Source of the DNA: Streptomonospora salina
GTDB lineage: Bacteria > Actinomycetota > Actinomycetes > Streptosporangiales > Streptosporangiaceae
Assembly: GCF_014204715.1 (NCBI RefSeq)
Contig: NZ_JACHLY010000001.1
Span: forward strand, 4,672,501-4,736,500
DNA length: 64,000 nucleotides
Direction of reading: 5' to 3'
Under the pieces are notes generated by a model. It made no database searches and was not told the origin of the DNA. It saw only the letters and a list, made by a program, of their open reading frames with translations. This document shows positions 26,308 to 27,967 of this stretch, in pieces (the first letter of the stretch is position 1; each line of letters begins with the position of its first letter). The position numbers were made by a program, and so were the translations under genes.

Positions 26308-26448
26308 GCCTGAAATCCCCTGATCCCTGACAACCGGAGCTGACGTCCCCGCTGTAACGGGTTCTCCCGCCTGATGGCAGGGGCTTTCACCCTCGGGTGA
26401 GGCCCGCCGTTGCCAGCACTAGCCAACACCACAAGGGAGGTGACCACG
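26308..26448 (+). ncRNA. Omega-RNA (HEARO-like) leader upstream of iscB
   Basis: IscB proteins are guided by an RNA encoded just upstream of their gene. Here the 140 bases before the start fold into local stems. GGAG 26336-26339 pairs with CTCC 26364-26367, enclosing CCCG 26348-26351 with CGGG 26358-26361. CCTG 26370-26373 pairs with CAGG 26378-26381. TCACC 26387-26391 pairs with GGTGA 26396-26400 around loop CTCG, extended by GGGC and GCCC (to 26405). The guide would be the bases just 5' of the scaffold. The boundaries and the family match are from memory and need a covariance search. Confidence 0.5.
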
Positions 26449-27156
26449 TTGGCTACGTTCCACACAGGACCACAGACCCACCAGGCCGTGCCTCCTCAGC
26501 GGCCTGCTCTGGAACCCGGCCCAGCAGACAACCCCGGGAACAGGGACGAAACGGGGGCCGGGCGCCGCGACGCACCCGGTGTGGAACACGTGCGAGAGGA
26601 GACCCCCGGTCGTGCACCTGCGACCGGGGGCGCCACCCCCGGCCCTTCCGGGATCGGGGAGCAGGGCCGTGAGTGGGCGCTGTGGCGCGCACTCGACACC
26701 CGCCTACCCACGCACGCGGGATCGGGCGGGCGCACCAAATGGAACCGCACCCGCAACCGTTTGCCCAAGACCCACACCCTCGACGCGCTATGCGCCGGCA
26801 CGACCGACACCGTCACCGCAACCGTGTCCGCGGTGCTGGTGGCCGCCTGCACCGGCCGCGGAACCCACGCCCGCACCCGGTGCGGCAAGCACGGGTTCCC
26901 GAGGCTGTACATGCCCCGCACCAAGGCGTTCCACGGGTTCGCCACCGGCGACCTCGTCCGCGCGGTCGTGCCCACCGGCAAGAACGCCGGAACCCATACC
27001 GGCCGGGTCGCGGTGCGGTCCAACGGCAAGTTCAACGTCACCACCGACCGCGGCGCTGTCCAGGGCATCCACCACCGCCACGTCCGCCGCCTCCAGCGAG
27101 GAGACGGTTACGGCTACACAACCGGAAAGGAGGGAGCGGCTTCCTCCCCGGTCTGA
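26449..27156 (+). CDS. iscB: Truncated IscB: N-terminal extension fused to RuvC-III and C-terminal domain
   Basis: 235 residues from TTG 26449, 5 bases after the strong site GGGAGGTGA. Residues 1-74 are the low-complexity extension seen in actinobacterial IscB proteins (MATFHTGPQTHQAVPPQRP). At REWALWRAL (74-82) the sequence jumps into the region normally found after the HNH domain. RTKWNRTRNRLPKTHTLDALC (95-115) holds RuvC-III with His109 and Asp112, and TGRGTHARTRCGKHGFPRLY to the end is the C-terminal domain. The PLMP, RuvC-I, bridge-helix, RuvC-II and HNH segments are missing with no frameshift. DNA cleavage is therefore not expected; RNA or DNA binding might remain. It could be a decaying remnant, since long open frames survive easily at this GC content. 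Confidence 0.75.
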   Translation: MATFHTGPQTHQAVPPQRPALEPGPADNPGNRDETGAGRRDAPGVEHVREETPGRAPATGGATPGPSGIGEQGREWALWRALDTRLPTHAGSGGRTKWNRTRNRLPKTHTLDALCAGTTDTVTATVSAVLVAACTGRGTHARTRCGKHGFPRLYMPRTKAFHGFATGDLVRAVVPTGKNAGTHTGRVAVRSNGKFNVTTDRGAVQGIHHRHVRRLQRGDGYGYTTGKEGAASSPV

Positions 27157-27184
27157 CGGCCGGGGGATCCGCTGCAGAACCCTG

Positions 27185-27967
27185 ATGACCACGGATCTGA
27201 TCGTCGGATTCTTCACGCTGACGGCGCTGGAGATCGTCCTCGGCATCGACAACCTCGTATTCATCTCGATCCTGGCGAACAAGCTGCCCGAGCACCAGCG
27301 ACACCGGGCGCGCCAGCTCGGGATCGGACTGGCCCTGATCGGCCGGTTGGCGCTGCTGGGCTCGATCACGCTGATCATGCGGCTGACGGAGCCGCTGTTC
27401 GCGGTCGGCTCGTTCGAATTCAGCGGTCAGGCGCTCATCCTGCTCGTCGGCGGGCTCTTCCTCATCGCCAAGGCCACCTACGAGATCCACGAGAGCCTCG
27501 AAGGCGAGGAGGACCACGCCGGCTCGAAGGTGCGCGCCGCGATGGGCGCGGTGCTGATGCAGATCGTCGCACTGGACATCGTCTTCTCCCTGGACTCGGT
27601 GATCACGGCGGTCGGCATGATCGGGCCCGACGGCATCTGGGTGATGGTCGCCGCCGTGGTGATCGCCGTGATCGTCATGCTCGTCCTGTCGGGGCCGCTG
27701 AGCCGCTTCGTCAGCGACCACCCCACGGTCAAGATGCTGGCCCTGGCGTTCCTGCTGCTGATCGGCATGACCCTGGTCGCCGATGGCCTCGGCTTCCACG
27801 TGCCCAAGGGCTACATCTACACCGCGATGGGCTTCTCGCTGTTCGTGGAGGTCCTCAACCTGCTGCGCCGGCGCGCCCGCAGCGCTCCGGTGAAGCTCAG
27901 CAGCCGCTACTCCGAGGAGGGGGAGAGCCACGGCTCCGGCGCCCCCGCCGTCGGAAAGGCCGAGTGA
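27185..27967 (+). CDS. terC: TerC family integral membrane protein
   Basis: 260 residues with about seven membrane helices. The family signatures are ALEIVLGIDNLVFISIL near 14-30 and QIVALDIVFSLDSVITAVGM near 125-144, whose buried acidic residues are linked to metal ion (manganese, tellurite-related) transport in TerC relatives. The C-terminal tail is cytoplasmic, Ser/Gly/Glu-rich. The ATG has no recognisable Shine-Dalgarno. The sequence just upstream (to 27173) is the hairpin end of the IscB element, so insertion may have removed the native ribosome binding site and promoter. Alternatively it is translated by reinitiation after iscB, whose stop is 29 bases upstream. Confidence 0.88.
   Translation: MTTDLIVGFFTLTALEIVLGIDNLVFISILANKLPEHQRHRARQLGIGLALIGRLALLGSITLIMRLTEPLFAVGSFEFSGQALILLVGGLFLIAKATYEIHESLEGEEDHAGSKVRAAMGAVLMQIVALDIVFSLDSVITAVGMIGPDGIWVMVAAVVIAVIVMLVLSGPLSRFVSDHPTVKMLALAFLLLIGMTLVADGLGFHVPKGYIYTAMGFSLFVEVLNLLRRRARSAPVKLSSRYSEEGESHGSGAPAVGKAE

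Follow-up and report, generated by a model that had tools for sequence, protein, structure and literature searches.

An internally deleted IscB element that keeps its reading frame between the Shine-Dalgarno sequence and the start codon of terC in Streptomonospora salina

Results

A miniature IscB frame directly upstream of terC

The window analysed here, a stretch of 64,000 nucleotides from Streptomonospora salina (contig NZ_JACHLY010000001.1, positions 4,672,501 to 4,736,500), contains the remnant of an ISC/IscB element whose right end lies directly 5' of the ATGA of the host gene terC (Table 1). The remnant comprises an omega-RNA and, partly overlapping it, a miniature IscB open reading frame (ORF), whose TGA stop falls in the loop of the right-end hairpin, 28 nt 5' of the terC ATG, a spacing expected of a coupled leader cistron. 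A single open frame of 235 codons had been reported here by an earlier sequence-only reading, and the observation holds: as judged by comparison with larger copies, residues 1 to 75 of a Streptomonospora-type IscB are fused to its RuvC-III/C-terminal end. That reading had joined residues 1 to 74 to REWALWRAL; it was right that an N-terminal part runs into the RuvC-III end, and one to two residues off as to where, R74 and E75 belonging to the left side.

Table 1. Features of the element and its surroundings (positions in the window)
Feature	Position	Strand	Basis
GGAG, displaced Shine-Dalgarno of terC	26336..26339	+	aligned to the uninterrupted terC sites of five congeners
Whole element, internally deleted ISC/IscB element, left end GTAACGGG	26354..27184	+	copies in own genome and congeners; empty site in 5/5 congeners
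Omega-RNA (HEARO, RF02033), overlaps 5' part of ORF	26354..26607	+	cmscan, 53.2 bits, whole model
GGGAGGTG in an omega-RNA loop, Shine-Dalgarno of the IscB frame	26435..26442	+	sequence; conserved in family elements
In-frame miniature IscB ORF	26449..27156	+	235 codons, TTG start; ORF list and translation
Deletion junction	26673..26674	+	831 nt missing; comparison with L035 and L036
RuvC-III motif KTHTLDAL	26767..26790	+	translation; NF040563 match
C-terminal region, putative TAM-interacting domain	26941..27153	+	approximate limits; by position relative to IsrB (accessible text of PMC9581776)
terC, host gene, start codon at insertion site	27185..27967	+	Pfam TerC

The alignment with a larger IscB copy that the same reading had proposed places the junction after residue 75. 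The reference for the missing codons was L036, a copy in the congener Streptomonospora sp. PA3 (G005) that is open over 447 residues and has lost its 5' end at a contig end. Against it the junction reads GAG/TGG, with 277 codons (831 nt) absent, a break at a codon boundary and at most 1 nt of microhomology. From position 26673 on, an ungapped alignment of 518 bases shows 86% identity between the window and an IscB element of PA3, so that the resemblance to IscB is not due to chance and the frame descends from an IscB gene. The reported loss of PLMP, RuvC-I, bridge helix, RuvC-II and HNH was borne out by the missing codons and by the NCBIfam IscB profile (NF040563), which matched only residues 75 to 117, the last 44 of its 314 positions (271 to 314); RuvC-I, bridge helix, RuvC-II and HNH are not present in the mini-protein. 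A Pfam search of the mini-protein gave no match, and a PDB sequence search nothing useful (best E 0.66). In IsrB, a domain at the position corresponding to the C-terminal region contacts the TAM, according to the accessible text of PMC9581776. The earlier caution that open frames are weak evidence at high GC proved well placed, as other frames across the element are also open: two of them reach terC, one ending in TGATG and one open into terC, so that an out-of-frame deletion might have been harmless here too.

A ribosome binding site inside the omega-RNA

The omega-RNA at the left end of the element matches the whole HEARO model at 53.2 bits (E 1.1e-9 in 1.3 kb), which is below the gathering score of 83, and was seen in a permissive search only; at gathering scores, Rfam returned nothing in the window. 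We accepted the match because a PA3 element gets 53.9 bits with the same model. HEARO was matched at E <= 0.001 by 10 of the 14 loci scanned (40 to 86 bits), and no match was found in L012, L067, L133 and L134. Because the match in the window extends into the ORF, residues 1 to 53 of the mini-protein share their sequence with the omega-RNA; the N-terminal extension is coding, as first described, and additionally encodes an omega-RNA that had been missed.

The strong ribosome binding site pointed out earlier is present as well, and is not a plain one, since it sits in an omega-RNA loop and is conserved in the family. In 20 of 20 full-length family elements (22 minus two dropped for a mis-set start), this loop carries GGAGGTG followed by ATG, TTG or GTG, and in full-length family elements the frame is open from this start codon into IscB. 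Because GGAGGTG and a start codon recur in the same loop of all 20, we assign the site to a clade whose IscB frame starts inside its own guide RNA. A start codon inside the omega-RNA was also found in named Streptomyces loci, where a Shine-Dalgarno sequence was required to set the start. An interpretation of the N-terminal extension as non-coding, owing to its overlap with the omega-RNA, was dropped, because full-length elements have an open frame with a conserved Shine-Dalgarno sequence and start codon. Across the window, the 20 full-length family loci and the named Streptomyces loci, about 80 N-terminal IscB codons and the omega-RNA structure are one shared sequence.

Precise insertion at terC and further copies in the genus

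The terC site is empty in five of five congeners, their upstream region being uninterrupted (for example, GGAGCTGACGACCCCGCC running directly into ATGACCACGG), and the insertion is precise, with ATGACC following the insertion point. terC is intact in all six genus genomes. In S. salina its ribosome site is now about 850 nt from its start codon, a split which the sequence-only reading had overlooked. The terC promoter probably precedes the element, because a TAGACT-like motif upstream is shared with the congeners. Comparison with the congeners shows an IscB element to have inserted between the terC Shine-Dalgarno sequence and ATGA in this lineage and then to have lost 831 internal bases, a deletion which, by the same comparison, removed the nuclease and kept the omega-RNA, start codon, frame, native stop and right end.

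A profile search found no full-length IscB in the S. salina genome (best match 49 bits, cut-off 175), which holds at least four further degraded IscB copies and two Y1 transposase matches, both partial. Larger IscB copies are present elsewhere in PA3, one of full extent with a frameshift (in L035) and one open over 447 residues (L036). These copies, the five empty congeners, the lack of a full-length IscB here and a search for homologues with the same junction, which found it in none of the other 26 in-frame derivatives described below, all support the simpler view already voiced in the earlier reading, namely that an element with no functional nuclease has undergone an internal deletion. L035 (G005:C17:16500-22500) contains two consecutive copies of a segment made up of the end of an ornithine carbamoyltransferase-like gene and the beginning of an IscB element, with a stretch of N separating the copies; this is either a tandem duplication or an assembly artefact.

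S. salina carries a second in-frame miniature IscB, L011 (C1:1448500-1451200), of 287 codons, in which PLMP is kept and RuvC-I to HNH are lost. It lies at the stop-start junction of a prfA-like gene, which we read as prfA, and prmC (Pfam PrmC_N), at a site that is empty in five of five congeners. There the junction reads TC/ATGA (5/5), the upstream stop overlapping the start; the GTAA left end of L011 restores this stop, as the junction now reads TCG TAA and the last codon is synonymous.

Frame-keeping among gutted IscBs of the family

The 341 genomes of the family were searched with a profile of the IscB C-terminus, at least 72 of them giving matches, and we took loci with open frames below 500 codons or otherwise odd ones, plus some full-length elements. 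An omega-RNA start region was recognised in 73 of the 93 loci scanned, the other loci lacking their 5' end, stopping at a contig end or escaping recognition; L103, among the 73, had no recognisable start. We defined a derivative as a locus spanning less than 1450 nt from start to native stop, which gave 39 and left L097 (1459 nt) and L113 (1455 nt) just outside. Start and tail share one frame in 27 of the 39, all open throughout except L079, which has a stop, and 12 are out of frame (L012, L038, L078, L107, L110, L112, L119, L120, L129, L136, L137 and L138). This recurrence of in-frame gutting had also been overlooked. In L103 (G232:C23), the IscB gene is seemingly interrupted within the HNH region by a stretch resembling another insertion sequence.

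The in-frame share exceeds one third (p = 5e-6; p = 4e-5 once the window, L130 and L135 are removed). As a control, words repeated within 24 intact ORFs proved to be in phase in 43, 45, 48, 54 and 70% of cases for k = 4, 5, 6, 8 and 10, so that mutation alone may favour in-frame deletions; tested against the first four of these microhomology rates the excess gave p = 0.0007, 0.002, 0.006 and 0.04, and against the 70% rate of 10-base repeats there was none (27/39 = 69%). Strong against one third, the excess shrinks to a modest one (p about 0.006) under the microhomology null and disappears when the longest repeats set the rate. Frame-keeping was not commoner where a host start was recognised (22/32) than where none was (5/7), which counts against the leader-cistron reading put forward below. 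Among 394 genomes of the class, 16 matched, four of them outside the family, and the four loci analysed there included no derivative. A scan of named genomes retained 80 of 318 relatives; of the 84 loci then analysed, the 72 with usable start and tail were all of full extent and 66 of these open, full-extent elements alone being recovered because the scan motifs require the RuvC-III region.

In the blastp mapping, every pair among the 27 in-frame derivatives differed in at least one breakpoint; L122 and L130 occupy one insertion site and have breakpoints close together. Simple patterns detected the RuvC-I DPGS in six of the 27, an HNH-like motif in three and the RuvC-III motif in seven, with all three in none, and the open ORFs are 74 to 438 residues long. 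The RuvC-III stretch of L111 is in another frame than the tail, the net ORF being back in the native frame. Given the varied parts kept, down to 74 residues, and the frame switch of L111, the derivatives do not preserve a common protein, and the pattern would fit selection for translation through the element rather than for the protein. The 438-codon derivative, L141 (G228:C1:1623100-1626000), has RuvC-I and RuvC-III motifs and no HNH motif; a deletion may have produced this IsrB-like layout.

Host start codons next to the elements

An ORF of at least 60 codons lies near the native stop in 57 of 72 tabulated elements (32 of 39 derivatives and 25 of 33 others), and downstream starts were classed as lying 22-31 nt after that stop (type A), overlapping it (type B) or lying 84-111 nt after it (type C). 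Pfam domains were found in 16 of 20 downstream proteins scanned, including TerC, PrmC_N, GT28, porphobilinogen deaminase, TPP enzyme, homoserine dehydrogenase and histidine biosynthesis domains; we read several of the genes as MurG-like (GT28), HemC-like, MenD-like (TPP enzyme) and HisA-like. GGAG, AGGA or GAGG occurs within 18 nt 5' of the left end in 32 of the 52 elements with a recognised left end, whereas of 260 control windows taken further upstream 48 contain such a word (p 1e-9).

By a criterion chosen after inspection of the data, an ORF ending within -30 to +4 nt of the host start is present in 22 of 27 type A or B derivatives: 18 in-frame ones at -26 to -29, L112 and L138 in an ATGA overlap, L129 at -4 and L136 at -28, with none in L107, L110, L119, L120 and L137. 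Random deletions simulated in ten full-length elements end in this interval in 42% of cases (p = 4e-5), and with 48% or 54% of the deletions in frame the observed count gave p = 0.003 and 0.015. The out-of-frame derivatives alone end near the host start in 4 of 9 cases, against 13% simulated (p = 0.02). At two sites the same insertion exists both full-length and gutted (L059 and L226 versus L122 and L130; L240 versus L112 and L115), and all four miniature copies there have retained an ORF that reaches either the native stop or the ATGA of the host gene. Broken copies upstream of genes were also found, in L107 (GntR-type regulator), L110 (cyclophilin-type protein) and L119 (no Pfam family), and nine full-extent or near-full copies have broken frames (L035b, L088, L096, L097, L102, L104, L106, L113 and L148).

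Discussion

The IscB element inserted between the terC Shine-Dalgarno sequence and ATGA was gutted, and we lean slightly towards the reading that the remaining ORF serves as a leader cistron whose translation supports terC. The terC mRNA would presumably start with the omega-RNA, followed by the mini-ORF; ribosomes would load at the Shine-Dalgarno sequence inside the omega-RNA, translate the mini-ORF, stop shortly before ATGA and re-initiate on terC, and this translation would additionally shield the transcript from Rho. Selection would tolerate any gutting that leaves an ORF reaching the host start, and the mini-protein would have no RNA-guided role. Several observations argue for this: the empty site in all five congeners, with the Shine-Dalgarno sequence before and ATGACC after the insertion point; L011, which repeats the stop-start insertion with the upstream stop restored; the 27 of 39 derivatives in frame, together with the 22 of 27 ORFs ending near the host start; and the Shine-Dalgarno-like words before left ends, together with the four same-site miniature copies that keep their ORFs. 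It is weakened by microhomology, which may explain the frame excess in part, and by the broken copies that precede genes.

The strongest rival is plain decay, which we regard as plausible though rather doubtful, whereby a random deletion happened to be in frame, the excess in the family stems from codon-phased microhomology in GC-rich genes and from shared ancestry, and nothing functional is left. The phased repeats (43-70% depending on length), the 12 out-of-frame derivatives and the private junction of the window all accord with it, and the changes on the window branch (10 at third positions versus 5 and 5; N 9, S 11) hint at relaxed constraint, while other outgroups gave N 17, S 16 and N 16, S 13, no clear signal. 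Decay is harder to reconcile with a window junction whose homology does not exceed 1 nt, a length at which little phase bias is expected, with an excess that persists at p 0.0007-0.006 for 4- to 6-base repeats, and with the tendency of out-of-frame derivatives, too, to end at the host start (4/9).

For the earlier suggestion of an RNA-guided DNA- or omega-RNA-binding protein we found no support in the sequences compared, and a repurposed nuclease-dead binder of omega-RNA or TAM DNA, akin to the regulator TldR, seems very improbable. TldR keeps its RNA- and DNA-binding scaffold. The mini-protein does retain the C-terminal region and the RuvC-III motif, and the omega-RNA adjoins its ORF, but the protein has lost the bridge helix, PLMP and most of RuvC, a conserved RNA- and DNA-binding scaffold with a lost active site was not found, its junction recurs in no other in-frame derivative, and the other derivatives retain different or smaller parts of IscB. 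Moreover, its dN/dS against the two PA3 copies (0.51 and 0.61) is similar to that between these copies (0.45), the value for L011 and G023 being 0.33, with no clear signal. A non-autonomous mobile derivative, whose ends and omega-RNA are kept because transposase and IscB act in trans, would agree with the retention of both ends and the omega-RNA, the two partial Y1 matches and the larger copies in PA3, but is highly unlikely, as this genome has no full-length IscB, the frame excess is left unexplained and, with no pair of in-frame derivatives sharing both breakpoints, there is no example of one that has multiplied.

As a derivative, the element is of a known kind; what looks new is that gutted IscBs keep their frame at split start codons. 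It shares with IscB/omega-RNA ISC elements (NF040563, RF02033) the ends, the omega-RNA, the RuvC-III and C-terminal part and the insertion directly before ATGA, and differs from them in lacking PLMP, RuvC-I, bridge helix, RuvC-II and HNH and in an ORF that starts inside the omega-RNA. Integration next to ATGA/GTGA was reportedly already noted in the first HEARO description (Weinberg, 2009). As in MITE-like, internally deleted non-autonomous IS derivatives, the ends are kept, the middle is lost and several different deletions occur per genome; unlike these, most gutted IscBs found here keep the frame from start to native tail (27/39). IStrons, which combine a group I intron with an IS, likewise make an IS harmless at its insertion site, according to the accessible part of PMC4227781, whereas the harmlessness proposed here would come from being translated through and not from splicing. 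With TldR, a nuclease-dead TnpB-type regulator as described in the accessible part of PMC13418256, the mini-IscB shares the loss of nuclease function in a transposon-derived RNA-guided protein, but it has lost most of the scaffold, and a search for a lineage with its junction found none. NTGA is given as a TAM of the IscB relative IsrB in the accessible text of PMC9581776. In the mostly open-access literature on IscB, HEARO and IS605, as covered by titles and abstracts (PMC9755519 included), we found no description of frame-keeping gutted IscBs at split start codons.

More broadly, we tentatively propose, as an idea that falls a little short of probable, that actinomycete IscB elements are built to sit at host start codons or stop-start junctions without silencing the gene: the GTAA left end can restore a stop; the omega-RNA contains the Shine-Dalgarno sequence and start codon of IscB, one sequence thereby serving as guide scaffold and as coding region; and the IscB frame ends 26-29 nt short of the host start codon at the TAM, or overlaps it. 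Once the nuclease decays, the frame would live on as a leader cistron, and gutted IscBs would form a recurrent class retained because they are translated and not for their product. If true, this would explain how RNA-guided IS elements with a start-codon target enter before important genes (MurG-like, HemC-like, PrmC, MenD-like and homoserine dehydrogenase genes among the sites concerned) without killing the host, and why IscB nuclease genes so often shrink in frame. It would also mean that conserved-looking, nuclease-dead IscB frames should not be taken for new RNA-guided regulators until the gene downstream has been considered.
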